Source of the DNA: Parabacteroides sp. PH5-46
Lineage (GTDB): Bacteria > Bacteroidota > Bacteroidia > Bacteroidales > Tannerellaceae
Direction of reading: 5' to 3'
Length of the DNA stretch: 63,055 nucleotides
Assembly (NCBI RefSeq): GCF_029892785.1
Contig: NZ_JARXXA010000022.1
Span: forward strand, 1-63,055
The notes under the pieces were generated by a model, which was given only the letters and a program-made list of their open reading frames with translations, was not told the DNA's origin and did no database searches. A program made the position numbers and the translations under genes. Each line of letters starts with the position of its first letter. Within the stretch, counting starts at the first letter, position 1. Of the stretch, positions 1 to 42,863 are shown in pieces.

Positions 1-1998
1 AAACAGCGTTTGGTGCTGGTCGCCAACATGCCTTCGGACATAAGTATACCCTCTACGGGACAGGAAGGAAAAAGTCTGACAGAACTCTTTAACAGTAAAG
101 ATTTTTCAGCGGCTTCATGGAGAAAAAATTCGCTATCATCATCCGATCCTGCTTTTCCCATGTGGGGGCAGATGAAGGATTCGATCGTTATCAATGAAAG
201 CACGGGAGCTATTACAGTCAATATGTTCCGGGCAATGGCACGGGTAGACGTGGGAGTTGATATGGATATTACAACATCATCACTGGCCGGTGACTTTAAA
301 ATCAACGAAGTATATGTATGCAATGCGGCAGACAAGGGTTACCTCACACCGCACAGTGATTATATGAAAGAAAGCGGTATTGACGTTACCACGATAGCAA
401 AGCCAAGGCCACATGCTGACAGGCATGCAGAGCAAAGTTACACTGTAAGCGATCAGCGCAAGCTTCTTGGGGCTATTTATATTCCCGAGTCAGACATCAA
501 ATCGTCGACTAATGACCCGGCTTTCCTGGTCGTAAAAGCAACTTACAAGGGACAGGCTAATTGTTATTACCGTATCGACTTTGCCAACAGCGGCAGTTTT
601 ATACCGGTTAAAAGAAACCATGCCTACCGTATCAATATTACTAATGTAAAGAGTTACGGTTACGGATCTCCAGAGGAAGCCAAGGATGCAGAACCATCCA
701 TCATCGGTAAAGACCTTATTGTGGAGGACGTAAATTCCGAGATCAATGAAATAGCCTACAATGATACCGATATGTTTGGTATCAGTGCCAGTGAAATCCT
801 TTTCGACTGGGACGAGGTACTAGTGGGCAAGAGTATGGAAGCTTCGGCAAAAGATCAATATGAACTCAAGCTATTCACCACTTATGCAAGCTGGACAGCT
901 ACCATTGACGGATCACCCTCTTGGTTTACCCTCTACGATGGTTCCAATAAAACCTCGGTAAGTAAAACAGATGTTGCAGGAAAACTTTCCTCGCTCATCA
1001 TCCGTGTGACGGAGGAGAACCTTAACGGTACGGAGCGCTCAGGAAGTATTACCCTCAAATCGGGCATGCTTACCCTGACAGTCAAGGTACGTCAGAGCGG
1101 GGGAGCCAACAGCCACCTGATACGCTTCGGGACAGGCAATACGGCATCCGTCAGGCTTCCTGTGCCCTTTGCCAAAGCAGCCCTGGGAGGAGGGGCGATC
1201 AACCCGACCGCTGCCCGCGTCTTATGGTATGAAGCCAAAGGGTCATCACCTGTTACTTTTACGGCCTCGCTTAGTGGCAACTATGTAACCGTAACGGCTA
1301 CTTCCGATGGTACACAATTCGACGGCAATGCCGTGATTGCCCTGGTACAGGGTAGTGGCATTGGCTGGGTAGGTAGTGATACCCCTATGGAAGTAATCTG
1401 GAGCTGGCATGTATGGTCCATGGCGGGCACATCGGATATGGATGCAAGTTTCCACGACCCAAACCGATCTAAACTCATGCGTTCGGTACTGGGTAAATAC
1501 ACGGCAAACAATGGTATGTTCTATCAGTGGGGGCGTAAAGACCCCTTCCCGAAAGAACTAACTGACGCATCGCCAAGAGCAGTCGTGCGTGAGGCCATGA
1601 CAACAGCCAATACAGAACCCTATGTTATACAGAACCCTACGGTATTCTATACCGGTACCCATTGGCTGACAGGTTCCTTTTCTGCTACACGCTGGACGGC
1701 AACAGGAGACAAAAGCAAAGCCGAATACAACGACCCTTGCCCCACCGGATGGCGCATACCCGTAGCCACTGACAGCTACGAGTGGACATTACCTGCTACA
1801 ATCAACGAGTTCCAGAACGGTATCCTTGATGGCTCAACAGGAATACCGGATACATCGAAGAATTACCTGTGGATCAACTCAGGGACAAACTATCCTTACT
1901 GGACGGCAAGCGGCACTACGGTTAACGCTTCTACATCTACAGCTACAACTCCCGGTGCCAATATTCGCTGCGTGAAGGATATCAAACTGGTGAAATAA
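1..1998 (+). CDS. FISUMP-type fimbrillin-like protein, 5' end cut by window edge
   Basis: The reading frame is open to base 1, so the apparent TTG start at base 10 is not a real start. The first visible residues (KQRLVLVANM) align with RLVILANATT near residue 111 of the 783-aa protein at 34993-37344, so about 110 N-terminal residues, including the lipoprotein signal, lie outside the window. Visible parts are a fimbrillin-like region with a PMWGQ motif, a BACON-like beta-sandwich ending in VKVRQSGG, and a C-terminal FISUMP-type domain (DPCPTGWRIP, YWTASG, IRCVKD). It is probably a surface pilus or tip component. It heads the visible part of an operon with five further genes plus an AraC gene. 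Function is inferred from homology to the right-hand copy. Confidence 0.8.
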   Translation, partial: KQRLVLVANMPSDISIPSTGQEGKSLTELFNSKDFSAASWRKNSLSSSDPAFPMWGQMKDSIVINESTGAITVNMFRAMARVDVGVDMDITTSSLAGDFKINEVYVCNAADKGYLTPHSDYMKESGIDVTTIAKPRPHADRHAEQSYTVSDQRKLLGAIYIPESDIKSSTNDPAFLVVKATYKGQANCYYRIDFANSGSFIPVKRNHAYRINITNVKSYGYGSPEEAKDAEPSIIGKDLIVEDVNSEINEIAYNDTDMFGISASEILFDWDEVLVGKSMEASAKDQYELKLFTTYASWTATIDGSPSWFTLYDGSNKTSVSKTDVAGKLSSLIIRVTEENLNGTERSGSITLKSGMLTLTVKVRQSGGANSHLIRFGTGNTASVRLPVPFAKAALGGGAINPTAARVLWYEAKGSSPVTFTASLSGNYVTVTATSDGTQFDGNAVIALVQGSGIGWVGSDTPMEVIWSWHVWSMAGTSDMDASFHDPNRSKLMRSVLGKYTANNGMFYQWGRKDPFPKELTDASPRAVVREAMTTANTEPYVIQNPTVFYTGTHWLTGSFSATRWTATGDKSKAEYNDPCPTGWRIPVATDSYEWTLPATINEFQNGILDGSTGIPDTSKNYLWINSGTNYPYWTASGTTVNASTSTATTPGANIRCVKDIKLVK

Positions 1999-2005
1999 CG
2001 GGTGA

Positions 2006-2033
2006 ACGATTAGTGATTAACGATTAACGATTA
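2006..2033. repeat. Four 7-bp tandem repeats (ACGATTA) before a start codon
   Basis: ACGATTA, GTGATTA, ACGATTA and ACGATTA lie end to end in the gap between the FISUMP gene stop and the next start, followed by a diverged unit. They occupy the place of the ribosome-binding region of the next gene, so a change in copy number would alter spacing there. No function is proven. Confidence 0.6.
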
Positions 2034-2039
2034 ATGATC

Positions 2040-4046
2040 ATGAATAAAACTAAAATAATATATTCTCTGGCTTCTCTCTTCCTATTCTCGGCTTTGCCCC
2101 TGACGGGACAGGCACAGGTGGTGCTCCGGAACAGTGGGGAGATGTACGTGGGAAGAGTTGCTTCTGATACGGCTCTCTATATCATGGGAAACTTCAAGGC
2201 ATACGACGTATCGGATATTGCACATCCGGGAAAGACCATCCTGACAGGTGATTTTATAAATGATGTGACCGGTACTTCCAAGGTCTTTAATTCCGGCACT
2301 CGCGCCGGCACCTTTGAGTTCAGGGGGACAGCGGCACAAACCGTATCCTTTGGGAGCAATGCCAGCAAACAGAACAATTATATACTCTTCCCAAACAACG
2401 TTGTTATAAAGAACACTAGTTCAGCGGGAACAGTAACGATTACCCCCTCGGCGGCTGCACAGGTGAAGAACGTGACCTTCCCAAACGGAAGGCTGGTGCT
2501 TGATTCAGATACTGTAAACGGAGACAGTAATGAGAGCCGCATAGCCCATTTATGGATAGAAGACGGGGCTTCGGCTATTGCCAATACCAATGCCAAAGCC
2601 AATATACAGGTAAACCTTGCCCTGGGCGAACGCCAGGGGCACCTGATTGGCTTTACCTCTCCATTCAAAACCATGTATGCGGATTATTTCTTTTTCCATT
2701 TCCTGTCTATCCCCTCGGAAACGGAACTGTTTAAAGGTAATAGTTATGAACTTTGGAACACCAATCCCAAACGCCCCCTGACAGCCGGGACAGGCTACAT
2801 ACTGGGGCAGGAGTTGGTGCCATATACTAACGATACATATTATGGCGCAGCACCCGGAGGTATCCTCCACAGCGACTATAATACCGCCCAGTTGGCAGAC
2901 GCTGTACAGGATGGTAACTTTACCTTCAACCGTCATACGATTGCCTCAAAAACGATTGGAGCCTTCGTTGGCGAAACAGACCGTTTTACAGGCGAAGAAT
3001 TGGTAAAAGACGATGTTACCATGACCCTCCAAAAAGGATACAACTACCTGGGGAATCCCTTTATGGTACCCCTTAACCTGGCAGACCTCATTACAACCGA
3101 CCGCTCAGCATGGGGTATTACCGGCACGGATGTGGCACAGCAATACTATGTATTGTCACCCGGAGCTTACGGAAACAGCACAGACGGAGTTACCTTCAAA
3201 TTCGGTGCCACCTACCTGGTAGGGCAGACCGAAGGAGCAACGACCCTCCACGAAAGGGGTAACCTTATTGCTCCCATGCAGATGTTCGTACTCAAAAATA
3301 ATGGTGCGGCTTTAAGTACCTTTAAGATACCCGAAAGCAAACGTACCCACGGTGCAACACTATACCTCAGAAGCAGCAATACGGCATACGAACCCGTAGA
3401 CGAACTGCTGCTCGAAGCACGCGATATGACAACAGGCGGTTTCGATCGCATGTGTGTAGTCTTCCGTAATGGAGCTACCCTCAAAGCAACCGACACCTAC
3501 GATGCAGAGAAGCTGTTTAACCGTACCGGCGGCGTAAACCAGCTATACACTCGCTCGGCAGACGGCAAGGAGCTGACAACAAATGTGCTTCCGGCTACTA
3601 CCACGAAGTTGCAAATGTACTTCGAACCTTCACTCGAAGCACAGGAGGTAGAGCTCGAAGCCAGCCGTCTGGAATCGCTCCGCTCGGTGTATGATGTTAC
3701 CATAGAAGACAGTAAAACAGGCAAGAAAAGCAGCTTCTTCCGTAGTCCGGTATACCGCTTTACCTCTGCTCCCGGCGATAGCCCTACGCGTTTCGTCCTT
3801 CACTTTAGCGGCAATCCTACAGGAACGGAAGAAATAGTTGGTAGCGAACTGTCAGCCTGGTATGAAAACGGCCTTACAAATATTAAAGGCCTTGAGGGAG
3901 AAAATCTCTGGATTTACAATGCCCAGGGCTTACTCATAACAAAAGAAAAGGTAATAGCCCCTACTATGCAGATCAAGAGAAGACTGGATACAGGAGTATA
4001 CTTTATCCGCACAGAGAACAAGTCAGTAAAACTATATGTAAAATAA
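2040..4046 (+). CDS. Secreted protein with type IX sorting-like C-terminus
   Basis: This is a 668-residue exported protein. It has an N-terminal signal peptide ending near GQAQ, then a beta-rich region (HPGKTILTGDFIND, NYLGNPFMVPL). The last 65 or so residues resemble a type A type IX secretion sorting domain (WIYNAQGLLI, LDTGVYFIR, final VKLYVK). The start at 2040 is preferred over the ATG at 2034 because the paralogue at 32976-34973 begins MNK at the equivalent place. The paralogue shares the whole architecture, including the MQMFVLKN and EKLFNRTGGVNQ-type segments. It follows the FISUMP fimbrillin gene by about 40 bp. Likely role: an extracellular protein attached to the pilus or cell surface. 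The molecular function is not known to me. Confidence 0.8.
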   Translation: MNKTKIIYSLASLFLFSALPLTGQAQVVLRNSGEMYVGRVASDTALYIMGNFKAYDVSDIAHPGKTILTGDFINDVTGTSKVFNSGTRAGTFEFRGTAAQTVSFGSNASKQNNYILFPNNVVIKNTSSAGTVTITPSAAAQVKNVTFPNGRLVLDSDTVNGDSNESRIAHLWIEDGASAIANTNAKANIQVNLALGERQGHLIGFTSPFKTMYADYFFFHFLSIPSETELFKGNSYELWNTNPKRPLTAGTGYILGQELVPYTNDTYYGAAPGGILHSDYNTAQLADAVQDGNFTFNRHTIASKTIGAFVGETDRFTGEELVKDDVTMTLQKGYNYLGNPFMVPLNLADLITTDRSAWGITGTDVAQQYYVLSPGAYGNSTDGVTFKFGATYLVGQTEGATTLHERGNLIAPMQMFVLKNNGAALSTFKIPESKRTHGATLYLRSSNTAYEPVDELLLEARDMTTGGFDRMCVVFRNGATLKATDTYDAEKLFNRTGGVNQLYTRSADGKELTTNVLPATTTKLQMYFEPSLEAQEVELEASRLESLRSVYDVTIEDSKTGKKSSFFRSPVYRFTSAPGDSPTRFVLHFSGNPTGTEEIVGSELSAWYENGLTNIKGLEGENLWIYNAQGLLITKEKVIAPTMQIKRRLDTGVYFIRTENKSVKLYVK

Positions 4047-4061
4047 GGGAATACACAGCAT

Positions 4062-4736
4062 ATGAAACGATTAATAATAACAATATTCCTGGCAGCCGTT
4101 TTTGCCGGTGCCGCTTCGGCACAGGTGACCATAGGCTCAACTGCCGCACCCGACAAGGCGAAACTGCTACAGATAGACAACTCCGGTGGCCTCGGACTAC
4201 CAAGGGTAGCCTTAGTATCATCAACAACCTTACAGCCCTTTATCACCGAAACCCTTTCCGCAGACGATAAGAAAGCCCATACCGGACTGATGGTCTACAA
4301 CCTCACCACAACAAGCCCTTTCAAAAAAGGCATCTATGTATGGGATGGAGAAAAGTGGACAGAAGCAGCCGAAGGAGCCGATAGCGGCTCAGGTGGTGGC
4401 AAGAAATGGTTCTACATGCCCGCCTTTAACCTGCCGATGACAAGCGTCGGAACGGGTAAAACTTTCAACCTATACACCGAATACCAGAAACAGTTCACCC
4501 AGTCATTGAATACTACGCTATACAAAACCAGCAATTCATCGGTAACGACCGTCCCCGCACCTGAGATCGGCACACTTTACACCCCGACACAACTGGATTA
4601 TGTAGTCGTAAACTACGATGCCAGCGTGATAACGGTAAACAGCATCAGCCCTACCGGCCTTATGACCTACGAAGTACTCGACACCGACCCATCACCCACT
4701 TCGTTTATGACTATCGTTTTTGTAGTTAAAGAATAA
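4062..4736 (+). CDS. Small exported VTIG-type protein of fimbrial module
   Basis: A 224-aa protein with a clear signal peptide (cleavage near ASAQ), followed by QVTIGSTAAPDKAKLLQI, GGLGLPRVALVS, GLMVYNLTTT and KKGIYVWDGEKW. This series resembles the widespread Bacteroidetes module read as VGIGTxxP..ALLDI..GLLLPR..GLMVYNT..YVWDGTKW, seen in many secreted proteins. The C-terminal half contains YMPAFNLPM and ends in FVVKE. Paralogues are at 6560-7288 and 32249-32941, each directly upstream of a propeller/PKD gene. The constant pairing suggests the two products act together. Function unknown; structural or adhesive role inferred. Confidence 0.8.
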   Translation: MKRLIITIFLAAVFAGAASAQVTIGSTAAPDKAKLLQIDNSGGLGLPRVALVSSTTLQPFITETLSADDKKAHTGLMVYNLTTTSPFKKGIYVWDGEKWTEAAEGADSGSGGGKKWFYMPAFNLPMTSVGTGKTFNLYTEYQKQFTQSLNTTLYKTSNSSVTTVPAPEIGTLYTPTQLDYVVVNYDASVITVNSISPTGLMTYEVLDTDPSPTSFMTIVFVVKE

Positions 4737-4752
4737 ATCAAAAATCAGCAAT

Positions 4753-6333
4753 ATGAAATACAGAATAATATATATAGCCTGCCTGCTCTCGATTATCGCC
4801 CTTTCCGGGCAGGCACAACAAGAGACCTGGACCTGGACCTTTGGGGACGGAGCTGGTTTAACCTGGAATAATATATGTACATTGAATGGACAAGGTGTAT
4901 ACGGCACAACAGAAAATAGTCCTTTAATCATGCCTATACAAGCAAGATCAGGGATGAAGACAAAAGAAGGTTGCTTTACAATCTCGGACCCACAAGGAAA
5001 TTTACTTTGTTATTCAGATGGTAGTAAGGTGTGGGATAGAACACATGCAATCATGCCGGGTGGCGAAGCAGGCAACTTCTCTGGGGATGAGGACTCTGCT
5101 CAGAGTGGAATATTTTTTCCTTACCCAGGTAGTTCAAGTAAATATGTGATGATAACAATATCGCCATATTCTGATAATATTATGATGTATGGGATTATTG
5201 ATATGAATCCGGCCACAAATGGCGGACATGAAAACGGAGCCGTTACTAGTACGGGTACATTTTCAGGACAGACAGGAAAACTGGGAGAATCTGTAAGTGC
5301 TATCCGTCATTCAAATGGTAGCGATTATTGGGTGGTCGCGCCAGGAACAGGAACAGGGACAACCGCTTTCAATGCCTGGCGGGTTACATCTTCCGGGGTG
5401 CAAGCCACAAGCCCTGTTAAATCCACGTTGCCCATTAACATTAAATCTTTTACTGATGGTGGAACGTATGGATATGTGAAATTTTCAAAAGATAGCCGTA
5501 CGATTTTATGGGGTTCAGGTTATGCTACAATAACAGGTGGTTATGGTTGTTTCTTTTTGGGTGATTTTAATCCGTCAACAGGTAGCGTAACTAATATTAA
5601 ATACAGGACACTAAAAAAAACAATTACACCTACACCGATGGTGCATCAGCCGGTATATTTTTATTCTGCAGAATTCTCGCCTTCCGGAAAATACCTGTAC
5701 ACAACTTCTAATGGTGTCGCTATCTATTCTTCCAGTCAAGATTATTGGGGGCTAATGGAAGTTTTTGATTTTGAAGAATTGAAAAACGACCCCGAAAACG
5801 CCATACCTAAAGCGTCTTATACAAGTAATATGTACATGGGAGCTGCTCAACTAACACCTGATGGAAGAATATTCATTTCTGAAAATAAAGAAGGGTTGGA
5901 TATTATAGAAAATCCGGATGAGGCTGAAAACTTACGAATTTATCATATATCCAACACATCTCTTTTTTCAGATTATATTAGTGCGAGAGCCGCACTACCG
6001 AACTTCCTTGCTAATTATTTTTACGATTCCAATTTAATAGGGAATCGGCATTTTTGTCTCAATACCAATCAGTTATTTATCTTAAACATCACAAACACAG
6101 GTATTGATTTATCATATACCAAGTGGGATTTCGGAGACGGCAGTTCAATAGAAACTGGCGGTAGCAGTCTCATGCAGTCAAAGCCACATATATATACGGA
6201 AAGTGGATCATATACTATTTCTGTAAAATGTTATGATGCCAATGATACGGAAATACCCCATGGCTCTAAAACGCTGCAAATATATGTGGATCACTGCTCC
6301 ATGCCGGTAAACCCGAATATACACCTGTATTAA
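4753..6333 (+). CDS. Beta-propeller-like protein with C-terminal PKD domain
   Basis: A 526-aa exported protein (signal peptide ending near SGQAQ). The N-terminal 400 residues carry motifs known from the propeller-like head of large secreted Bacteroidetes PKD proteins: GDGAGLTWNN, EGCFTISDPQGNLL, YSDGSKVWDR, QSGIFFPYPG, HSNGSDYWVV, FSPSGKYLY. A PKD domain follows (YTKWDFGDGSS, GSYTISVKCYDAND). The protein ends in CSMPVNPNIHLY, a tail shared with its two paralogues. The first roughly 100 bases are G+C-richer than the body, which may reflect recombination at conserved ends. It lies 16 bp after its partner gene. Likely extracellular adhesion or structural role. Confidence 0.75.
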   Translation: MKYRIIYIACLLSIIALSGQAQQETWTWTFGDGAGLTWNNICTLNGQGVYGTTENSPLIMPIQARSGMKTKEGCFTISDPQGNLLCYSDGSKVWDRTHAIMPGGEAGNFSGDEDSAQSGIFFPYPGSSSKYVMITISPYSDNIMMYGIIDMNPATNGGHENGAVTSTGTFSGQTGKLGESVSAIRHSNGSDYWVVAPGTGTGTTAFNAWRVTSSGVQATSPVKSTLPINIKSFTDGGTYGYVKFSKDSRTILWGSGYATITGGYGCFFLGDFNPSTGSVTNIKYRTLKKTITPTPMVHQPVYFYSAEFSPSGKYLYTTSNGVAIYSSSQDYWGLMEVFDFEELKNDPENAIPKASYTSNMYMGAAQLTPDGRIFISENKEGLDIIENPDEAENLRIYHISNTSLFSDYISARAALPNFLANYFYDSNLIGNRHFCLNTNQLFILNITNTGIDLSYTKWDFGDGSSIETGGSSLMQSKPHIYTESGSYTISVKCYDANDTEIPHGSKTLQIYVDHCSMPVNPNIHLY

Positions 6334-6382
6334 TGGTTAATTATTAATGATAAAACCATTAACCATTAATAATTAACCATTA
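6331..6382. terminator. 19-bp perfect inverted repeat after propeller gene
   Basis: Arms at 6331-6349 and 6364-6382 are perfect reverse complements (TAATGGTTAATTATTAATG) separated by 14 nt, starting at the stop codon. The stem is A+T-rich and no T-run follows directly, so it may be a weak terminator, an mRNA-end stabiliser or a protein site. Confidence 0.55.
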
Positions 6383-6401
6383 CAAAAACGTTCTTTGACA
6401 T

Positions 6402-6500
6402 ATTGGCTTACACCCTGCTGTGTTTCAGCACAATAAGGCTGTGAAGGAAATACAAGTCCTTTCGGATTTCTTGTCTTTCTATAAAAGTGTGTAAGCCAAT
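6402..6500 (+). ncRNA. Structured leader: three-stem RNA-like element
   Basis: A closing stem pairs ATTGGCTTACAC (6402-6413) with GTGTAAGCCAAT (6489-6500). Inside are two hairpins: TGCTG/CAGCA (6416-6420 with 6426-6430) and a longer one built from GAAA/TTTC, ACAAG/CTTGT (6452-6456 with 6470-6474) and TCC/GGA around a TTTC loop. The layout is that of a three-way junction. It is preceded by TTCTTTGACATATTGG and followed at once by a terminator-like hairpin, then the 242-aa gene. No known riboswitch class was recognised. A short invertible segment is the main alternative reading of the 12-bp inverted repeat. Confidence 0.5.
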
Positions 6501-6503
6501 TAA

Positions 6504-6527
6504 AAGAAAGCCTTATACGCTTTTTTT
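6504..6527 (+). terminator. Intrinsic-terminator-like hairpin in operon leader
   Basis: AAGAAAGC (6504-6511) can pair with GCTTTTTT (6519-6526) around a 7-nt loop, and the 3' arm runs into a T-tract to 6527. Its position between the three-stem element and the next gene is that of an attenuator. The stem is weak, with one G-T pair. Confidence 0.45.
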
Positions 6528-6559
6528 ACGTGTAATTTTTAAAATAAAATAAATAGATT

Positions 6560-7288
6560 ATGATACAGAAATTGAAACTTGTTTTACTGCTTGTAGCTGT
6601 GGCCGGAATAGGATCGGCTTACGGACAGGTAACGGTAGGCTCGGACGTAGCTCCGGCCAAAGCAGCGCTGCTGGAAATCAAAAGCCAGGCAGCCGATGCA
6701 ACTACGAATGTAACGTCTACCAAGGGAGGCTTGGGTTTGCCAAGAGTGAACTTAGTGTCTACAACTACCTTACAGCCTTTCATCGGTACCAGCGATACGG
6801 AATGGAATAGTACCAATCAAGCTGCTACTAAGGCAGCGCATGCCGGACTGGTAGTGTATAACCTTACCACAACAGGCGACTTTAAAAAAGGTGTCTACGT
6901 ATGGGACGGTGCCAAGTGGGCACAGATAGGAGCCGGAGGAGGTGATGCCACCGCTGCCGAAAAGTACTTCTACATCCCTTCGTTCAACATCCCACTCAAA
7001 GCAGTAGGACAAACAGACCAGATAAACCTGTATGCAGAGTATGTAAGACAGTTTACCCAGACAGGTAATACGACCTTTGTAAGCAGTAATGCTTCACTAA
7101 CAAAAATACCTTCAAAAGCAGCAGGTACGTTATATACAGCAAGTGAACTGGATTATGTAGTAACCTACTACGACCCAAATACAATTGAAAACGTAACTGT
7201 TAGCACTGCAGGAAAGCTAAGCTACAAAGTGAAGTCACAAATCACCAGTCCCGCATCATTCCTCAATGTAGTGTTCGTAATCAAATAA
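6560..7288 (+). CDS. Small exported VTIG-type protein, second left copy
   Basis: A 242-aa paralogue of the protein at 4062-4736. It has a signal peptide ending near SAYGQ, then VTVGSDVAPAKAALLEIKS, GGLGLPRVNLVS, GLVVYNLTTTG and KKGVYVWDGAKW, then a C-terminal region with YIPSFNIPLK and a final NVVFVIK. A short insert (AADATTNVTSTK) follows the first motif. It sits downstream of the structured leader and 7 bp before the larger propeller gene, so this pair may be expressed separately from the preceding pair. Probably a surface structural or adhesive protein paired with its neighbour. Confidence 0.8.
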   Translation: MIQKLKLVLLLVAVAGIGSAYGQVTVGSDVAPAKAALLEIKSQAADATTNVTSTKGGLGLPRVNLVSTTTLQPFIGTSDTEWNSTNQAATKAAHAGLVVYNLTTTGDFKKGVYVWDGAKWAQIGAGGGDATAAEKYFYIPSFNIPLKAVGQTDQINLYAEYVRQFTQTGNTTFVSSNASLTKIPSKAAGTLYTASELDYVVTYYDPNTIENVTVSTAGKLSYKVKSQITSPASFLNVVFVIK

Positions 7289-7295
7289 AGAAAAT

Positions 7296-9356
7296 ATGAA
7301 GCGAATTATATATATAACTTGCCTGCTGTTGACAGTCATCTTTGCTTCCCATGCCCAGAAAGAGACCCACAACTGGTATTGGGGGATTGGAGCAGGCTTG
7401 ACTTGGAATTCGACACGAAGTTTTAACGCTACAGCTGCTATACCCGGAGTGGCAGACTCTACACTAGTTGGACTTCCTGCACTTTTATCCGGAGGTCAAA
7501 TGAATCAATTGGAAGGTTGCTTTTCTCTGTCTGATTCGGAAGGAAATCTACTAATGTATTCCGATGGTGTGACACTATGGAATAAGAATCATGGAATAAT
7601 GGCTGATGATTTAAAAGGTCATCTGTCATCACCCCAATCGGGTATTATTTTTCCTTATCCGGGACACCCCAATCAGTATGTAGTTGCTTCTATAGGAGCT
7701 CAACCTAATGTAGATCAACTAATACCAATAGTTGCTTACTCAATTGTAGATATGAATCTGAATAGCGGATTAGGGAGCGTAGTTGAAAAAAACATTCAAT
7801 TATTGAATGGAGACCCGGGAGTGAACGTGCATGGCATGAAAATGAGTTTGTCTGAAAGTATAACAGCGATACCGCATGCAAATAAACAAGATTATTGGGT
7901 TATAGTGCCTGGAAGTGGAAAGATGAATGCCTGGTTAGTCACAGCGGATAGTGTACACAAATCAACACCTATAATTAGCACAATTGGACCATCACTTACT
8001 TATAATGGTGCAAAAGGATACATAAAGATGACTCCAGACGGTAAACATTTTGCTTGGGGAACTTGGGTAAGTGGTAATTCTTTACTGTTTGGTGATTTTG
8101 ATAATAATACCGGAATATTCAGTAATAAACATCTCTATAATAGTGCTAATTTCGCACCCTATGGTGTAGAATTTTCCCCGTCCGGAAAATATTTATATGT
8201 AATGAATATTGAGATGGGGAGCAAGAAACTACATGTGATTGACATGGAGGCCACTTTGGCTATTCCAGAATCTTATGGCCAATTCATGTACCCTCCTCAA
8301 AAGGTTTATGATTTAGATTTGCACGGAGGACTTCAATTAGGAGCTGATGGTAGAATTTATTGCTCATACTTAGCATCTCCGGGAGGGGATGAATCTGCAC
8401 GAACCCGGGATCTTCATGTGATTGATAATCCTGAAGAATTTGATAATCTGAGAATTTACAAGTTGGAGAATTTTCTTTCGGAAGGGATGCAGTCGGGAAT
8501 GGGATTGCCTTCATTTTGCGCCAGCTGGTTTTCAGTATCCATACAAGGGCCTAAATCATTCTGTGCAAATACTTCACAGACATTTGAATTAACTGTTAAA
8601 GGGAATTACGGGCTGAGTTATACAACATGGGATTTCGGAGACGGAAGCACTCTTATAACAGATAACACAAATACCACAGGTACGCAAACACAACCTCATA
8701 CCTATGCAACTGCAGGAACCTATACAATTACTGTAAAATCGTTCCAGGCTAACGACACAGAAGTAGCGGACAAACGACAAACCTTAGAGGTAACCGTACT
8801 CTCTGCCCCAACTATATTATCCGTCGCTACTTCCGGTGCTTGTGAAACTCCAACTCTGACGGCCTCTTCGAAAGATAACAAAGCTACCTTCAAGTGGTAT
8901 AGTACATCAACAGGTACAACTGCGGTTCATACGGGGAGTACCTATTCGCCGACCTTTAGTGGGTCAGCATCTTATTGGGTAGAAGCTGTCAACGAAGCAG
9001 GCTGCGAATCTTCGCGTGTAAAAGTAGATGTGGGTAATTGTGGATCACTTACAACCTCTTTGACAGGTTCAACCGATCTGATCATCAACAAAGAAGGATC
9101 GTATACAGTAACCATCGACGACACGACCGGAGAAGTAAATTCCAGCAAGTGGGATTTCGGTGATGGCAGTGCTTTGGTGGATGGAACAAGTAGCAGTCAC
9201 TCCAAAAATCATACCTATCCCAAACGGGGTAACTATGTTGTTACAGTATCGTTCTACGATGCCGAGGGTAATAAGATAGGTGAGGAGACACTGCGGGTGA
9301 AGGTAGGAAGCGGTATGCTGCCCGTAAACCATAACATATCCGTAATGGGATATTAA
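7296..9356 (+). CDS. Beta-propeller-like protein with two PKD domains and Ig-like domain
   Basis: A 686-aa exported protein, the largest of three paralogues. Signal peptide ends near ASHAQ. The propeller-like head shows GIGAGLTWNS, EGCFSLSDSEGNLL, YSDGVTLWNKNHGIM, QSGIIFPYPG, QDYWVIVPG and FSPSGKYLY. Next come a PKD domain (TWDFGDGS, TYTITVKSF), an Ig-like segment (CETPTLTASS, STYSPTFSGSASYWVEA) and a second PKD domain (SKWDFGDGSALV, NYVVTVSFYDAEG). The tail GMLPVNHNISVMGY matches the PVNP-type ends of the paralogues. The additional Ig and PKD units suggest lengthening by domain gain. It is separated from the AraC gene by only 14 bp. Confidence 0.78.
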   Translation: MKRIIYITCLLLTVIFASHAQKETHNWYWGIGAGLTWNSTRSFNATAAIPGVADSTLVGLPALLSGGQMNQLEGCFSLSDSEGNLLMYSDGVTLWNKNHGIMADDLKGHLSSPQSGIIFPYPGHPNQYVVASIGAQPNVDQLIPIVAYSIVDMNLNSGLGSVVEKNIQLLNGDPGVNVHGMKMSLSESITAIPHANKQDYWVIVPGSGKMNAWLVTADSVHKSTPIISTIGPSLTYNGAKGYIKMTPDGKHFAWGTWVSGNSLLFGDFDNNTGIFSNKHLYNSANFAPYGVEFSPSGKYLYVMNIEMGSKKLHVIDMEATLAIPESYGQFMYPPQKVYDLDLHGGLQLGADGRIYCSYLASPGGDESARTRDLHVIDNPEEFDNLRIYKLENFLSEGMQSGMGLPSFCASWFSVSIQGPKSFCANTSQTFELTVKGNYGLSYTTWDFGDGSTLITDNTNTTGTQTQPHTYATAGTYTITVKSFQANDTEVADKRQTLEVTVLSAPTILSVATSGACETPTLTASSKDNKATFKWYSTSTGTTAVHTGSTYSPTFSGSASYWVEAVNEAGCESSRVKVDVGNCGSLTTSLTGSTDLIINKEGSYTVTIDDTTGEVNSSKWDFGDGSALVDGTSSSHSKNHTYPKRGNYVVTVSFYDAEGNKIGEETLRVKVGSGMLPVNHNISVMGY

Positions 9357-9370
9357 AAGAGAAATATAGA

Positions 9371-10234
9371 ATGAATGTAATGCAGCCTGCTACATCAGTT
9401 TGTCATAAAACAAATAAAAACCTTTTTCTAAAGGCGGAAGGCTTCAGGTTACTAAACCTGAAAGCCGATGCCTTGTATGCTCCCGCCGGACGGGAATATA
9501 ACCACCTATTATTGCTTATGGAAGGAAGCCTACAGGTGAGCTGTAACCAGTTTGTACAGCAGATAATACAGGCTAATGAATGTATATTGATACCCCTGGG
9601 GGCAAATGTAAAATGCAAAGCATTGTCGGAATGTAAGCTGGTGTGCTTCTCTTTTTACAGCCTTCCGGCAGACTATAATGGTCCCTATATGGCAGATTTG
9701 CACCATGCTGCCAGCGAGATGGAATATACCTTAAAACCCATCCCTCTGCGCGAGCCAATGCAGAAATTCCTGACATTGCTATTGGGATACTTTAACGCAG
9801 GAATAGACAATTTAGACTTGCAAAGGGTGAAGTATCAGGAGTTTTTCCTCTTGCTACAAGCCTTTTACAGCATACAGGAAGTGGCTGCTCTACTCTATCC
9901 GCTGGTAGGTAGCGACCCCACTTTTCGTCTGGAAGTATTGCGCTACTACCGGAAAGTAAACAAGGCTGAAGACCTTGCCGCCTTGCTGGAAATGGAGAGC
10001 CGCGCCTTCAGCCGCCGGATCAAGGAAGAGTTCGGACTCTCTCCTTACCAATGGCTACTCAAACAGAAAGCCGGACATATCTACTTCAGCCTGAAAGAAG
10101 AAAAAGAGAAGCCCCTGGAAACGATCTGGCTGGAACACGGTTTCCACTATGCCGGACACTTCAGCCGCTTCTGCAAAGAACAGTTCGGGGTTTCCCCGCT
10201 AAAAATACGAAATGCCTCACGCCGCAAAGCGTGA
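9371..10234 (+). CDS. AraC-family regulator ending the left fimbrial operon
   Basis: A 287-aa protein. The N-terminal half looks like a cupin-type sensor (YNHLLLLMEGSLQVSCN, ECILIPLGANVKCKA). The C-terminal 100 residues form two helix-turn-helix units typical of AraC proteins (FSRRIKEEFGLSPYQWLLKQKA, FHYAGHFSRFCKEQFGVSP). It is closely related in length and layout to the regulator at 29702-30550, which likewise ends the right-hand module. It follows the propeller gene by 14 bp and is followed by a hairpin/terminator element conserved after the other copy. It probably controls fimbrial genes, possibly including its own operon. Confidence 0.88.
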   Translation: MNVMQPATSVCHKTNKNLFLKAEGFRLLNLKADALYAPAGREYNHLLLLMEGSLQVSCNQFVQQIIQANECILIPLGANVKCKALSECKLVCFSFYSLPADYNGPYMADLHHAASEMEYTLKPIPLREPMQKFLTLLLGYFNAGIDNLDLQRVKYQEFFLLLQAFYSIQEVAALLYPLVGSDPTFRLEVLRYYRKVNKAEDLAALLEMESRAFSRRIKEEFGLSPYQWLLKQKAGHIYFSLKEEKEKPLETIWLEHGFHYAGHFSRFCKEQFGVSPLKIRNASRRKA

Positions 10235-10240
10235 AAGAAG

Positions 10241-10331
10241 ATATCTTATCTTTCTTAAGTTAACGCCAAGTTAATTTAAGGTTAGTCTATGGAGAAGGGA
10301 CGCCTGTGAAGGTATCCCTCTCATTTTTTTT
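10241..10331 (+). terminator. Tandem hairpin and terminator, copy 1
   Basis: CTTAAGTTA (10254-10262) pairs with TAATTTAAG (10272-10280). A second hairpin follows: GAGA-A-GGGA (10292-10300) with TCCCTCTC (10315-10322), containing CCT/AGG around a GTGA loop, and then eight T residues. The same segment occurs on the other strand after the second AraC gene (29602-29684) with few changes. The second hairpin is a convincing intrinsic terminator. The role of the first is unknown. Confidence 0.8.
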
Positions 10332-14529: not shown

Positions 14530-16323
14530 ATGATGAAAAAGTGTTTTACCGTTTTATTGCTTTTACTATTTTTTGCCGGTCATACCCTTGCTCAAAAGGG
14601 GGATTGGTATAACGATGAAGGAGAACATACCTATAAAGGAAGCGGAACAAAAGAAAACCCCTTCCTGATATCGTCTGTTTCCGGTTTAACCTTTCTGGCC
14701 GACCAGGTAAATATGACACCCGGAAATCCTTATCACGGAGTTTATTTTAAACTGACAGAAGACCTTGATTTGGGAGCGCATTACTGGATTTCGATTGGCT
14801 GCGATGCGGCCCACCCGTTTCAGGGTAGTTTCGACGGAAACGGAAAAGTAATACGAAACCTGTATATAAACAATTCCAATTCGGAAGGCTATCCTGCCTC
14901 CGGCTTGTTTGGCTACCTGGGCAATGGCGCCCGGATTGAAAACCTCACCATCGAAGGAGGTAAAATCACCGGGGATGCCAGTCAGTCTATTTCGTACACG
15001 GGAAGCCTGGCGGGTTATATGTTCTGTAATGCCGTTAACGGAGAAGATTCCATCATTATACGAAATTGTCACAATAAAAACGTCACAATCATCGGCGGGG
15101 AAACCGAACATTCCAACACCGGTGGACTTATTGGTGAAGGATATGCTTTCTGCGACGGTGACGGTTCAGTTTATATCCTGATCGACAAATGCTCAAATAA
15201 TGCCGAGATATCTGCCGGTACTTCCAACCTATCATATACCGGGGGGATTATCGGCAAAGGACGTGGGCATGGCTACTGTGACGGTACAGTGTCTTCCGCT
15301 GCTTCCTTTGTTATCACTTCATGTGTTAACAACGGATCTATCAGTGGCGGAAACACCCGGGGTGAGGAAGCTGTTTGTGCTACCGGAGGGGTGTTCGGAT
15401 ATGGAAATGCTTCGGGAGACGGCTATGGCTATAGCGACGGATCCGGCGTATTCACCGCTCATTTATGCGTAAACAACGGATTCGTTAAAGGTGGAAATGC
15501 GATCAGTGATAACGCTCTTTCATTTACCGGAGGGATATTTGGGTATGGAGATGGATATGGATATGGCGACAAATCAAGCATCAGCGATAATATTAACGAC
15601 GGAAACGGATACGGCTCCGGGAAATTCATCATAACCTCCAGCTGTAACCGGGGTATGATAGCCGGAGGAAAGAACAGCGGGAAGAACAGCACGATAGCAA
15701 CCGGAGGGGTCTTTGGTTTTGCATCCGGTTCTGCATCCGGAGACGAACAGGGAAAAGGCTACGGATATGGTTCTTTCAGCATGAGAAACTGTTATCATGC
15801 AGGAGATATCACTGCCGATAGTGGTTGCCTGGGAGGAATGGGAGGCTGGATAAGCACAAACGGAAATGGTCCCAACCACACCGTATCAGCCATCATACAA
15901 GACTGTTATGCAGCCGGAACTATCAACAAGAATGAACAACCTTCTGTTGCCATTACCGGAGGAATTGTAGGCCGGATCCATAAAGTGGACGAAGCAAAGA
16001 CAAGCCCTGTGGTAGACCATTGCCTGGCTGTCCTTTCCTATATGGCAGGAGACCCACCTACAACCTATCGTATTGTAGGACAACTGATGCACGCAGAGAC
16101 AAGCTCGCGCGTTTTATCAGGGAATTATGCTTATATACCTGAAGGTAATTGGGTAGATATTAATTCGATCCGCAACGGTAGCGAATGGGGTAGCTTTATG
16201 GATCTTCCCCCTATGGATTCGTGGAACAAAGCTGAAAATGCCTGGCAATTTCCCCGTTCTAATAATGTAATGCCTCGACTGAGAGGTATCCCGGGGCAAA
16301 CAAATGTGGCAGTTCCCCAATAA
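14530..16323 (+). CDS. Glycine/tyrosine-rich GLUG-like repeat surface protein
   Basis: A 597-aa exported protein (signal peptide ending near TLAQ). It opens with a module seen in many Bacteroidetes beta-helix proteins (GTKENPFLISSVSGLTFLADQVN, FQGSFDGNGKVIRNLYI). About seven imperfect repeats follow, each with a turn like TGG(I/V)(I/F)GxG and a CxNNG(x)I segment. Several repeats carry an insert rich in Gly, Tyr and Asp (GDGYGYSDGSG, GYGDGYGYGDKSS, GKGYGYGSFS). No C-terminal sorting domain is obvious. It probably forms a right-handed beta-helix on the cell surface. It is probably co-transcribed with the PHP gene. Function unknown. Confidence 0.72.
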   Translation: MMKKCFTVLLLLLFFAGHTLAQKGDWYNDEGEHTYKGSGTKENPFLISSVSGLTFLADQVNMTPGNPYHGVYFKLTEDLDLGAHYWISIGCDAAHPFQGSFDGNGKVIRNLYINNSNSEGYPASGLFGYLGNGARIENLTIEGGKITGDASQSISYTGSLAGYMFCNAVNGEDSIIIRNCHNKNVTIIGGETEHSNTGGLIGEGYAFCDGDGSVYILIDKCSNNAEISAGTSNLSYTGGIIGKGRGHGYCDGTVSSAASFVITSCVNNGSISGGNTRGEEAVCATGGVFGYGNASGDGYGYSDGSGVFTAHLCVNNGFVKGGNAISDNALSFTGGIFGYGDGYGYGDKSSISDNINDGNGYGSGKFIITSSCNRGMIAGGKNSGKNSTIATGGVFGFASGSASGDEQGKGYGYGSFSMRNCYHAGDITADSGCLGGMGGWISTNGNGPNHTVSAIIQDCYAAGTINKNEQPSVAITGGIVGRIHKVDEAKTSPVVDHCLAVLSYMAGDPPTTYRIVGQLMHAETSSRVLSGNYAYIPEGNWVDINSIRNGSEWGSFMDLPPMDSWNKAENAWQFPRSNNVMPRLRGIPGQTNVAVPQ

Positions 16324-28388: not shown

Positions 28389-29237
28389 TTAATTATTCAA
28401 GTGTATATCTACGCTAAAAGAATCCGCAAGTTCAAAATTACCCGGTAGGGAGGCCGGCAATAAAAGTTCGAGAACAGGGATATTTACTAGCTCCCGAACT
28501 TTCCCGTCTTCCTGTTCGTTTTCGGTAATAATCAAACGAGAATTTGAATTATCATTGGAGAGCAAAAGAACAAAATTCACCATATATTCACCCTCATCAC
28601 TAATCCCTGTACGGGGATGGTATACCAATTCTTCCGAACGTAAAATGGTATTATTAAACGTATATCCTCTGTCGAAAGAGGTAATCTTACATCCATACGG
28701 CATTTTATCCGGGCTTTCAACTGTTGAATTAACAGCTGTTATATGAATTGATTTCGTTTTCTTAACCATATCAATAGAAAATTCATTTGAGCTTGCCGGC
28801 AAAACTTCAACATTAAACGACGAACCATAAAACAAATGAGGCAGACAATCGGATACTACATTTCCCTGACACTTTATCGAAAGATGGCAATCTTCTATAT
28901 TCGTTACACCTTTTTCTAAAGCACAAAGGGAATAAGAATCTGTTAGATTACCCCAGACTACAAAACTATACACACCCGGCTCAAGATCCAGGTCTATTAC
29001 ATTTTTATTCCGAAGCTCGCTTACATTTAAATAATACTCATCCTCCAGTCGACCGGCCGAGTTAAATATATACAGATTCACTTTATCAACTTCTGAAGCG
29101 AAGTTATCAGAACCATCTATGCTTTTGGAATATTGAAAACTGAGGCTTACGGTATTCTCTGTTTCATCTTGCGTATTACATGAAAAACACATAAAAACGA
29201 ATAATAACACGACTAAACGATAAATAAATAATTTCAT
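28389..29237 (-). CDS. Mfa2/FimB-type fimbrial anchor lipoprotein, lone copy
   Basis: A 282-aa lipoprotein (FMCFSC lipobox) of the Mfa2/FimB family. Family-like segments are VDKVNLYIFNSAGRLEDEYYL, GVYSFVVWGNL and LLLPASLPGNFELADSFSVDIHLNN. In Porphyromonas, Mfa2 and FimB anchor the pilus to the outer membrane and limit its length. It is the same family as the gene at 38802-39770 but sits alone, beyond the AraC gene that ends the right-hand operon. A long gap with repeated motifs precedes it, so it may be controlled separately. Confidence 0.85.
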   Translation of the reverse strand: MKLFIYRLVVLLFVFMCFSCNTQDETENTVSLSFQYSKSIDGSDNFASEVDKVNLYIFNSAGRLEDEYYLNVSELRNKNVIDLDLEPGVYSFVVWGNLTDSYSLCALEKGVTNIEDCHLSIKCQGNVVSDCLPHLFYGSSFNVEVLPASSNEFSIDMVKKTKSIHITAVNSTVESPDKMPYGCKITSFDRGYTFNNTILRSEELVYHPRTGISDEGEYMVNFVLLLSNDNSNSRLIITENEQEDGKVRELVNIPVLELLLPASLPGNFELADSFSVDIHLNN

Positions 29238-29601: not shown

Positions 29602-29684
29602 GAAAAAGGGATACCTTCACAGGCCTCCCTTCTCATAGACTAACCTTAAGTTAACTTGGTGCTAACTTAAGAAAGATAAGATAT
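29602..29684 (-). terminator. Tandem hairpin and terminator, copy 2
   Basis: On the minus strand this repeats the element at 10241-10331. CTTAAGTTA/TAACTTAAG (29663-29671 and 29645-29653) is followed by GAGAAGGGA...CCT-GTGA-AGG...TCCC and a T-run. Most positions agree, including both hairpin loops. It follows the AraC gene stop. Confidence 0.8.
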
Positions 29685-29701
29685 TTTCAGTTTCTTTATT
29701 T

Positions 29702-30550
29702 TTATTGGTTTAGTTTTCTACGTAAATGACGTGGCGAATCTTTAAAGTATTCCTTACAAAAACGGATGAAATGCGCCTGGTACTTAAATCCCATCTTTTG
29801 GTAGATGCATTCCATTGATTTTGACGTATCACGTAAACTAAAAAGAATATGCTTTGCTTTTTGATCAAGTAGCCATTGATAAGGAGGAATCCCAAACTCT
29901 TCTTTGAATTTACGGGAGAAGATTCTTTTCTCCATATCAGATGTATGGGCCAATTCTTCCACGTTGTTTGCTTTCCTGTAATTCTTCAAAATATGTAATC
30001 TGAAGTGAGGAGACTTTCCTATCAGCGGGTGAAAAAAAGAAGCTACTTCCTTATCTGTGTAAAAATATTTCAGGATAAGGAACAATTCCTTTTGTTTCAA
30101 TTCCAGTAAAAGTTTTTCATTTATTTCAAAATCATGATCGTACGTTTGTAATAGACGAAAGAAATGAGCAAAAGGACTCTTAATAGTAAGCGGGGCAAAA
30201 CTGTACGGGATAGAAGAACTAATACGCAACAATTTATTCAAATAAGTATAATCAGAACTATACGGTACATTTTCGAATGTAACAAACATGACACGTACAT
30301 CTGATAATGATTTACATATTACATCTGCAGCTATGGGAATAAAAACGAATTCGTCTTTTTTTAGTGATACGATTGATTCGTTACAATTCACTGTCATAGA
30401 GCCTTCAAGTAAGAAAATAATATGGTTATAATCTCCGCTCCCGGCTGTAAAAGTCAGCCCTTCTCCTACTTCCCTATACTTGAATCCTGTTTGAGAAGGA
30501 TGTGTTCCTAGCAGAGGCGATTCTGCAATATATGATTGAAAACTACTCAT
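29702..30550 (-). CDS. AraC-family regulator ending the right fimbrial operon
   Basis: A 282-aa protein parallel to the regulator at 9371-10234. The sensor half includes YNHIIFLLEGSMTVNCN and EFVFIPIAADVICKS. The C-terminal AraC domain includes FSRKFKEEFGIPPYQWLLDQKA and FKYQAHFIRFCKEYFKDSPRHL. It starts 14 bp after the propeller gene, the same gap as in the left copy, so it is probably the last gene of the operon and may feed back on it. Confidence 0.88.
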   Translation of the reverse strand: MSSFQSYIAESPLLGTHPSQTGFKYREVGEGLTFTAGSGDYNHIIFLLEGSMTVNCNESIVSLKKDEFVFIPIAADVICKSLSDVRVMFVTFENVPYSSDYTYLNKLLRISSSIPYSFAPLTIKSPFAHFFRLLQTYDHDFEINEKLLLELKQKELFLILKYFYTDKEVASFFHPLIGKSPHFRLHILKNYRKANNVEELAHTSDMEKRIFSRKFKEEFGIPPYQWLLDQKAKHILFSLRDTSKSMECIYQKMGFKYQAHFIRFCKEYFKDSPRHLRRKLNQ

Positions 30551-30564
30551 ATTTAACTATTTAC

Positions 30565-32244
30565 TTATTTACCAACTATTCCTCTTATATGTGGATTAAC
30601 CGGAATACTACAATCACTTACATTGACTGTAAGCGTTTGTCGCAGATCAGTTATTTCACTAGCTCCATTATAAAACTTAACAGTTATCGTATAGCTTCCT
30701 GGTGTTGAATATTTTATATTAGAATACTCTTGTATAGCACCCTGGCTAACATTCGTATTCGGAGATTCATTGGCTCTTCCGTCACCAAAATTCCAAACAG
30801 TATGTGTTATATTAGTAGCTGCTCCCCCTCTTGAAACTGTTAATCTATAACTTCTCGGAACATCGGCACAAATATCTGTTTCTCCTGTTATATCTGCCGA
30901 AAACCAGGATGGAGAAAAAGAAGGCAAGCCCACATGTCCACCTGTTCCAGTGAGAAGAAAACTGTAAAGTTTATAAATTTTTAATGTTTTATTTGCACTC
31001 GTTCCAGGCGATTCGGGGTTGGTTATCAACAATATGTGCCTCGTTATCGCACCTGCCAACCTAGTAACTTCCACACTTGATCCCGCCGTAGCAGGTGTTT
31101 CAATATAATAATAAGTCAGATAAAGATATCCATCCGGTCCCATTTGAACACCACCCACTCCTATATAGCTTCCACTATTACCTTCTCTTATTCGCTGACC
31201 ATAAAGAGGTCCTGTGCCAGGATTAATTTTGAGTGCTTCGAAATCAAACACATATAGACTTGGGGGAGCTGTCATATATAAATACTTACCCGACTGAGAA
31301 AATTCAGCCCTACTAGGACTACCTTGACCGCCAGGAAGAGACCACAAGTTTATATTAGAAAATAGTCCCGTCGCACTATCAAAATCTCCAAAAATAAGGC
31401 TCGTGCCTGCAGCTCCTGCTCCAGCACCACACCAAACAAAAGAATCCCCCTTAGGAGAAAATTTAAATGCTCCTCCAACCGTAGGGTCAACACCAATGCC
31501 CCAACCTGTATCTATATTCACAAACGTTTTTACCGGAGTAGATGTATGAATACCATCTTTCGTAACCAGCCAGGCATTAAAACAGGTTGCCCCGCTAACC
31601 CCATGTCCTGGAGCTACAATCCAGAAATCCCGTTTGTTTTTATGAGCAATTACATTTAGACTCTCACCTAAGATTCCACTATGCCCTGTTAATGGTATGT
31701 TTTTTATTGGCTGATTATTACTATCTGTAACAACACGTCCTCCATTTTGCATATCTATAACAGTATATCTTACAGATGTAGTAGTTGACAGCAAGGGTAT
31801 AGATAAGGCAATAAATTTACCAGCATTAGCTGATCCCGGAAAAGGCAATACCACACCAGACTGATTGGAAGAATGATGACCTGAAAGCTCTGTAACCGTA
31901 GACAGGTTTTGAGGGAAATGTATCTTCATCCCATCCGAATAAACCATAAACTGTCCGGTTTGAGGATCTGATAAAGCAAAACAGCCTTCGTATGTAGTAA
32001 TATCTGTCTTTATTGGCTTAGGTATAGATAATGAATTTATTTCATTAGTAGGAGTACTGGCAAAAGCCTCAGTAATAAAATTAAATTTATATACCGCCAT
32101 CCCGGTCATTGATGCTGGTGTAGTAGGCGTGTTCCAACTCAACCCTGCATTGTACCCAAACGCCCAGTTATAAGCCTCTTTTTGTGCCTGAATGCCTACA
32201 CATAGAAAGACAAACAGAGCTATTAATACAATTCTTTTTATCAT
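30565..32244 (-). CDS. Beta-propeller-like protein with PKD domain
   Basis: A 559-aa exported protein (signal ending near GIQAQ). The head shows GYNAGLSWNTP, EGCFALSDPQTGQFMVYSDG, QSGVVLPFPGS, AHKNKRDFWIVAPGHG and FSQSGKYLYM. The C-terminal PKD-like domain has HTVWNFGDGRA and GSYTITVKFYNGA. The tail CSIPVNPHIRGIVGK matches those of both left paralogues. It begins 4 bp after its small VTIG-type partner gene. Likely an extracellular part of the pilus accessory module. Ligand unknown. Confidence 0.76.
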   Translation of the reverse strand: MIKRIVLIALFVFLCVGIQAQKEAYNWAFGYNAGLSWNTPTTPASMTGMAVYKFNFITEAFASTPTNEINSLSIPKPIKTDITTYEGCFALSDPQTGQFMVYSDGMKIHFPQNLSTVTELSGHHSSNQSGVVLPFPGSANAGKFIALSIPLLSTTTSVRYTVIDMQNGGRVVTDSNNQPIKNIPLTGHSGILGESLNVIAHKNKRDFWIVAPGHGVSGATCFNAWLVTKDGIHTSTPVKTFVNIDTGWGIGVDPTVGGAFKFSPKGDSFVWCGAGAGAAGTSLIFGDFDSATGLFSNINLWSLPGGQGSPSRAEFSQSGKYLYMTAPPSLYVFDFEALKINPGTGPLYGQRIREGNSGSYIGVGGVQMGPDGYLYLTYYYIETPATAGSSVEVTRLAGAITRHILLITNPESPGTSANKTLKIYKLYSFLLTGTGGHVGLPSFSPSWFSADITGETDICADVPRSYRLTVSRGGAATNITHTVWNFGDGRANESPNTNVSQGAIQEYSNIKYSTPGSYTITVKFYNGASEITDLRQTLTVNVSDCSIPVNPHIRGIVGK

Positions 32245-32248
32245 AGTC

Positions 32249-32941: not shown

Positions 32942-32975
32942 ATTTATTATTTTTATTTTATTTCCTATTTTTTAC

Positions 32976-34973: not shown

Positions 34974-34992
34974 ACTATGCTATTATGTATAA

Positions 34993-37344: not shown

Positions 37345-37390
37345 TATACCTGTCTTTTTATTTTCAAATCAATTTTATCGTAACTTAAAA

Positions 37391-38758: not shown

Positions 38759-38801
38759 ATAATTATTTATTAAATGAACCATTTCTCTATAGTTTTAATA
38801 G

Positions 38802-39770: not shown

Positions 39771-39832
39771 TTTCTTTCTGTTGTTTGTTTTCTGTAGTCA
39801 GAAAGGTATTTAGTCAAAACAATAGAGTAAAA

Positions 39833-39861
39833 GACAAAGGCAAGGCAATCTTGCCTTTGTC
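39833..39861 (-). terminator. Hairpin between major fimbrillin and anchor genes
   Basis: GACAAAGGCAAG (39833-39844) and CTTGCCTTTGTC (39850-39861) form a perfect 12-bp stem with a 5-nt loop. On the minus strand it is followed by TTTTAC, so it may act as a partial terminator, giving more major subunit than anchor mRNA. Confidence 0.75.
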
Positions 39862-39879
39862 TCTATATCTGGTTAATAA

Positions 39880-42851: not shown

Positions 42852-42863
42852 TTTCGGTACGGT

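Follow-up and report, generated by a model that had tools for sequence, protein, structure and literature searches.

The subject of this analysis is a 63,055-nucleotide contig from Parabacteroides sp. PH5-46 (NZ_JARXXA010000022.1, or C22; analysed whole, and hereafter 'the window'), which carries twice, on opposite strands, a succession of genes encoding a tip fimbrillin, a protein of a family termed here 'T9SS-tail' (after the type IX secretion system, T9SS), a small protein termed 'VTIG', a large propeller/PKD protein and an AraC-family regulator, followed by a terminator-like element. This order extends across positions 1–10330 (plus strand) and 37344–29607 (minus strand). The gene order and coordinates that a first-pass annotation had given for these five genes were confirmed, and all five left/right pairs were found to be paralogs, with protein identities (43% for the tip, 53% for the T9SS-tail protein, 38% for VTIG, and 37% for both the propeller protein and AraC) that are far above chance.

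Two operon ends and their paralogs

The left copy begins with a tip fimbrillin gene (1–1998, plus strand) whose 5' end is cut by the start of the contig, and the copy therefore lacks upstream pilus genes. It continues on the same strand with a T9SS-tail gene (2034–4046), a first VTIG gene (4062–4736, identified through alignments A8 and A12 and a search for gene order) and a first propeller/PKD gene (4753–6333; PKD_4, 34.5 bits against a cut-off of 27). A second VTIG/propeller pair (6560–9356), also described by the first-pass annotation, is indeed present, and comprises a further VTIG gene (6560–7288) and a gene for a propeller/PKD/Ig protein (7296–9356; PKD_4, 54.8 bits; Ig_7, 52.7 bits); it is followed by AraC (9371–10234; HTH_18, 56.9 bits) and by a double-hairpin, terminator-like element (10237–10330).

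The right copy (minus strand) belongs to a complete Mfa-type operon (29607–44469), of which it forms the 3' end. At the front of that operon are an upstream AraC-family-like regulator (43609–44469, which was aligned with both downstream AraC proteins and is 22% identical to the left one) and two genes of conserved position in relatives, whose products we take to be a DUF3575-like protein (42864–43451) and an OmpA/DUF3868-like outer-membrane protein (41355–42851). They are followed by an Mfa1-type fimbrillin (39880–41289; PF15495, Fimbrillin_C, 35 bits against a cut-off of 27), an Mfa2/FimB-type anchor (38802–39770; PF08842, 148.6 bits against 21.2) and a minor pilin (37391–38782) that was assigned by its position and by similarity to same-placed genes of relatives and that has no Pfam match. 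The fimbrillin stalk gene and the anchor gene, both above cut-off, are among the features by which a type V (Mfa/Fim) operon is recognized. The remainder of the operon consists of the tip fimbrillin (34993–37344), the T9SS-tail protein (32976–34973), a single VTIG protein (32249–32941; alignment A8 and the order search), a propeller/PKD protein (30565–32244; PKD, 27.8 bits against 23.5), AraC (29702–30550; HTH_18, 57.1 bits) and the terminator-like element (29607–29688).

Related operon ends were identified on at least five further contigs (C5, C6, C12, C13 and C16) of the assembly, which totals 4.42 Mb in 39 contigs and is 99% complete. Two VTIG/slot pairs are present on both C5 and C6 (the first VTIG gene of the latter is cut by the contig end), and on C12, C13 and C16 other genes, including FISUMP-like and thioredoxin-like proteins recognized by eye, stand where the propeller slot would be. 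A thioredoxin-like protein lies directly 5' of AraC at each of these last three loci (L021, L022 and L023), which are operons without a propeller slot.

Comparison of these paralogs indicates where they diverge. Between the left copy and C6, the second VTIG gene and AraC are 97% and 93% identical at the DNA level, and the gene enclosed by these near-identical flanks on C6 encodes an FG-GAP protein, of another kind than the propeller of C22; BLAST homology stops at the VTIG stop codon (7290) and restarts at the codons for PVNHNI (9321). Between the left copy and C5, protein identity amounts to 86% for the T9SS-tail protein, 79 and 81% for the VTIG proteins, 81% for AraC, 59% for the tip, and 44 and 51% for the propellers, so that the propeller slot, with the lowest identity, is the fastest changing part in this comparison. 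The tip/VTIG stretch is also where contigs C5, C6, C13 and C22 all break off, a pattern suggestive of long repeats, or of a sequenced population in which arrangements are mixed.

The first-pass annotation had also held that the spacings of the two copies agree, which stood for the 14 base pairs (bp) that precede both AraC genes and failed for the other intergenic gaps (35 versus 19, 15 versus 34 and 16 versus 4 bp, left versus right). Since these remaining gaps differ, and since AraC is preceded by 4 bp in the C5 copy, the common 14 bp is taken as a probable coincidence, and equal spacing was rejected as evidence, three of the four gaps being different. The accompanying claim that one terminator element ends both copies was borne out: left and right share 55 + 28 bp, at 93 and 96% identity, and the element is predicted to fold into two hairpins with a run of T residues behind them (z-score -3.81; none of 200 shuffles as good). 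The left element is absent from the plus-strand output of a simple terminator scan. Across the genome seven strong copies (93–100%) were found, every one directly 3' of an AraC gene. A diverged copy (C20:67174–67260, 79%) has no AraC gene beside it and lies behind what is presumably a MiaB-like gene, so that the element also occurs outside pilus operons; a partial copy on C2 (81% over 47 bases) lies behind an apparent pilus gene. The element was found in 3 of 18 genomes of the genus, namely the window's own, G001 (once, directly behind a T9SS-tail gene) and G004 (weakly).

Two further genes of the window may be mentioned: a lone Mfa2/FimB-type anchor (28389–29237, minus strand, 113.2 bits) located just downstream of the right copy, and a gene at 14530–16323 (plus strand) for a 597-residue protein with a signal-peptide-like start, glycine-rich stretches and no Pfam match.

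The tip gene and the T9SS-tail gene

The left tip protein scored 49.1 bits against the FimD tip adhesin model NF052322 (FimD_tip_adhes, cut-off 170) and gave sub-threshold matches to Mfa2, BACON and Fimbrillin_C; the right tip protein had no match to the FimD model and a sub-threshold match to P_gingi_FimA (19.3 bits). A search of PDB sequences with the tip returned no matches. The FISUMP label that had first been attached to both tips was not upheld in a search with PF09603 (Fib_succ_major), in which the left tip reached 15.1 bits against a cut-off of 33.9 and the right tip had no match up to an E value of 0.1.

The right T9SS-tail protein scored 24.9 bits against the T9SS type A tail model (TIGR04183, cut-off 23) and the left one 20.1 bits, just below that cut-off. 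A search with the family profile gave a match at 1.8e-9, over the C-terminal part, to the chain of PDB entry 8gl8 that is RemZ; the available part of the corresponding report (PMC10994853) describes RemZ as a type A substrate caught inside the translocon of the T9SS. The translocon gene SprA is present in the window genome (C20:45312–52526, 2965 bits) and in 114 of the 123 Tannerellaceae genomes, the window's own counted. At 1e-20 the T9SS-tail family was found in 18 of the same 123 genomes, these being 16 of the 18 members of the window's genus (again counting its own), G320, and G324, which is Parabacteroides sp. PF5-9; set against the count for SprA, this led to the rejection of T9SS presence as the cause of the family's distribution.

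Twenty-five of the 28 corresponding match rows were opened as loci (20 in relatives and 5 in the window genome, the other three rows being two G011 fragments and a G320 match). At 22 of the 25 the T9SS-tail gene directly follows a tip gene (18 of 20 in relatives, and 4 of 5 in the window genome, the exception being C12); at L099 two open reading frames (ORFs) separate the two. Mfa2 lies upstream at 17 of the relatives' 20 loci, and a VTIG/propeller pair is present at one. Mfa/Fim-type operons of one Tannerellaceae genus, as well as those of Parabacteroides sp. PF5-9, stably include the tip gene with the T9SS-tail gene behind it. Across Bacteroidales, relatives of the T9SS-tail protein matched in 102 of 295 genomes, and most of the matches listed are confined to the model's C-terminal half. 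Up to five propeller and four T9SS-tail candidates were scored per genome in these wide searches, and up to twelve in later propeller and VTIG searches, and copy numbers are to be read as lower bounds.

VTIG proteins and their large partners

VTIG and its propeller partner are a separate two-gene unit and not a fixed part of the pilus core. The VTIG C-terminal domain (alignment A12, built from 18 sequences with those of G433 left out) was found in 4 of 393 Bacteroidales genomes, with at least 24 matches: seven in the window genome (G000), at least twelve in G150, four in G433 and one in G297. Among the 24 matches listed, 23 lie at most one gene away from a large protein with a signal-peptide-like start (a feature present, by a simple rule, in all eight partners looked at). 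VTIG is encoded directly upstream of the large protein in all seven cases in the window genome and all four in G433; the single G297 match has no such protein at that distance. For G150 all twelve matches listed are next to a large protein or one gene away from it, often in the arrangement VTIG-propeller-VTIG, with a gene for a protein of 161–167 residues between the two in two cases. Triples of VTIG, a 161–167-residue protein and a tailed protein of 964–968 residues occur at L138 and L140 of that genome, three of them in tandem at L140. Four of four VTIG genes in the fetched loci of G324 precede a propeller gene, and several tailed genes in those loci have no adjoining VTIG gene. Searches of PDB sequences gave no match for the VTIG C-terminal domain and a single match, at an E value of 0.73, for the whole protein.

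Many of the VTIG partners end in a short tail of approximately 12–15 residues around the motif PVN-P/H-x-I, often preceded by a cysteine. The three propeller proteins of the window terminate in CSMPVNPNIHLY (4753–6333), MLPVNHNISVMGY (7296–9356) and CSIPVNPHIRGIVGK (30565–32244). None of these three has a match to the CHU_C/TIGR04131 tail, a scan of 17 proteins that are linked to VTIG or bear the tail found no T9SS signal of type A, B or C in any of them, and PorP/SprF (PF11751) was not found among 20 window genes scanned. The propeller profile at 1e-10 matched in 90 of 295 Bacteroidales genomes, and G005 (like G016, a Tannerellaceae bacterium represented by a metagenome-assembled genome) gave weak, PKD-sized propeller matches at 4.5e-4. 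Four distant propeller relatives from other families, scanned from ten loci (L028–L037), all exceed the Pfam cut-off for CHU_C, and three exceed that of the NCBIfam type B model (L030 reached 31.1 bits against 35); the one at L029 adjoins a PorP/SprF gene. A fifth relative (G244, L143) has a type A tail, such that all five distant relatives scanned bear T9SS tails.

A degenerate DNA pattern for the short tail matched seven times in the window genome, each time at the end of one of the window's propeller genes or of a slot gene on C5 or C6, and its reversed form never matched. Elsewhere it marked the ends of tailed genes in six of nine matches in G324 (reversed control, one) and three of four in G150 (reversed control, none), the fourth of these lying inside another gene. 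The pattern admits glutamine at its fourth residue, and eight matches in eight other genomes of the genus, together with three of the nine in G324, lie at unopened loci. In a later tail count, 17 matches in G324 corresponded to 13 distinct genes (L099 and L137 overlap), and one of six in G150 is a chance match in a probable outer-membrane barrel, as judged by eye. The tail is found also on the FG-GAP protein of C6 and on the 964–968-residue proteins of G150, the scanned one of which has an SprB repeat. Two of the four G433 partners have the strict tail, one a near form (PVNPKQR) and one none; one of the four is a propeller/PKD protein and one carries SprB repeats. The propeller partners in G150 mostly have deviating tails, in which a cysteine is followed by N-x-M. 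A literature text search with four tail or motif strings gave no match.

Interpretation, rival explanations and known systems

The two segments are best read as the 3' halves of paralogous type V (Mfa/Fim) pilus operons, some copies of which carry one or two VTIG/propeller cassettes between the T9SS-tail gene and AraC, an interpretation to which we assign a probability of roughly 0.6. The core order is probably DUF3575, OmpA/DUF3868, Mfa1, Mfa2, minor pilin, FimD-like tip and T9SS-tail, with AraC and the double-hairpin element ending it in the window genome. The repeated operon type is real, and is best regarded as a variant of type V pilus operons into which diversifying adhesin cassettes have been recruited, the cassette being the rarer and less expected element of the two. 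The pilins would assemble as in Mfa/Fim pili, and the T9SS-tail protein, by analogy with Mfa5, may cross the outer membrane through the T9SS and join the pilus. The propeller protein would be displayed as a diversifying adhesin, with VTIG perhaps as its dedicated partner in the role of carrier or anchor, and the local AraC, to judge from its family, may set expression.

Several observations weigh against this interpretation. No propeller match at 1e-10 was found in the 17 other members of the genus, 15 of which have a T9SS-tail match, and the propeller cassette is therefore not needed for the pilus. AraC lies directly downstream of the T9SS-tail gene at only 4 of the relatives' 20 loci, and at L091 of G012 no tip gene lies beside the T9SS-tail gene. 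The more distant T9SS-tail relatives at L050, L056–L060, L063, L065 and L066 have no pilus operon around them (one ORF at L065 carries a 23-bit tip label). VTIG/propeller pairs occur without pilus genes in G150 and G433, which belong to one family, not the window's. Finally, the structure models were poor (mean predicted local distance difference test scores of 57 and 60), so that the propeller fold and its interfaces are not established by structure; a Foldseek search with the poor propeller model returned two matches at an E value of 0.001 or better, one of them across a PKD domain.

Some of these points bear on the question of whether the VTIG/tailed-protein pair functions in surface display without any tie to pili, its presence in a pilus operon then being a convenience of shared regulation or an insertion, an alternative that we regard as possible and on balance doubtful. 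Across the pair loci fetched (eight in G150 and four in G433) a single pilus label was seen, a 13-bit match to the tip that falls on a 140-residue ORF at L055, and only one of five propeller sites in G324 lies within a pilus operon. Against this stand the seven VTIG genes of the window genome, all of which are found at operon ends closed by AraC and the element (four loci), with tip and T9SS-tail genes upstream at three of the four and the fourth, on C6, cut by the contig end; the same placement recurs on contig C22 of G324, in another genus, where a tip gene, two ORFs and a T9SS-tail gene are followed by two VTIG-propeller pairs and then four more propeller genes. Among the loci opened, the cassette lies within pilus operons only in these two genomes. 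The linkage across Bacteroidales that the first-pass annotation had anticipated therefore holds for VTIG and propeller, which stay together, and fails for their association with pilus genes, from which they are mostly apart. A single five-gene module was rejected, since its parts separate in relatives, and the locus is better described as a pilus-operon core with an inserted two-gene surface unit.

More tentatively, the tail and VTIG may represent a hitherto undescribed surface-display pair of Bacteroidales, in which the tail would have replaced a type A or B signal on propeller, FG-GAP and SprB-repeat proteins, VTIG (the C-terminal strand of which is conserved) would serve as carrier or anchor, and pilus operons would be one vehicle; this proposal is more apt to be wrong than right. 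Its counterpart, that the PVN-P/H-x-I tail is merely the conserved end of a last Ig/PKD strand or a recombination footprint and no signal, is likewise rather unlikely. The tail falls within the 13 residues after the last strand predicted in a poor model, the paralogs are mosaic such that a conserved end could reflect shared ancestry, and the G150 propeller sandwiches with their deviating tails, like the G433 partner without a clear one, fit that view; yet the tail recurs on different bodies in two families, and the exclusive location of all seven pattern matches in the window genome at the ends of such genes, with none for the reversed pattern, speaks against it. The least favoured explanation, which we consider improbable, is that the repeated operon ends act as a store for recombination, through which tip cassettes are exchanged in a manner resembling antigenic variation. 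Mosaic blocks of identity, the slot gene swapped between near-identical flanks and the four contigs that end inside the block are consistent with such a store, but the basis for it is one genome assembly, in which contig ends can be plain assembly breaks.

The interpretation as pilus operons with recruited cassettes would connect the T9SS with type V pili in a clade other than Porphyromonas, would make the pilus-linked T9SS cargo family a candidate tip protein, and isolates a rare two-gene unit, the partners in which lack the usual T9SS signals and often bear a short tail. Pilus genes of P. distasonis have been listed earlier, in a report whose available text does not contain the words PKD, T9SS or AraC (PMC9409006), and among titles and the beginnings of abstracts no description of this operon or tail was found.

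Among the closest known systems is that of the Mfa1-5/FimA-E pili of Porphyromonas gingivalis, which share Mfa1, Mfa2, a minor pilin, a FimD-like tip and a T9SS-exported protein in the operon; the last of these, Mfa5, is localized to the pilus tip according to the available part of the source (PMC7835359). The suggestion that the module is an undescribed pilus system must be qualified to the same extent: the link between tip and T9SS-tail genes is repeated, as noted above, whereas a type V operon was already known to encode a tip protein secreted by the T9SS. The operons described here differ from those of P. gingivalis by their VTIG/propeller cassettes, their terminal AraC and the DUF3575/DUF3868-like genes at the front, and, unlike Mfa5, neither T9SS-tail protein of the window has a von Willebrand match in Pfam.

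A second likeness is to the gene pairs of a T9SS type B substrate and its dedicated partner PorP/SprF, as presented in the available portions of two reports (PMC9143113; PMC12618676), and VTIG may relate to the short tail as PorP/SprF does to type B tails. The partner here is the small VTIG protein, usually encoded upstream, rather than PorP/SprF, and the 17 partner or tailed proteins scanned are all without a CHU_C or Por_Secre_tail match. Short T9SS C-terminal domains are described for Prevotella intermedia, where, in the available text, they measure 40–51 residues from the cleavage site to the end and contain motifs B, D and E (PMC11969387); the tail described here is likewise short and C-terminal, and differs in its length of approximately 12–15 residues, in its PVN-P/H-x-I motif and in being without those usual motifs. 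Should it function as a signal, it would be an addition to the T9SS signals A, B and C listed in the available part of a 2023 review (PMC10202324).

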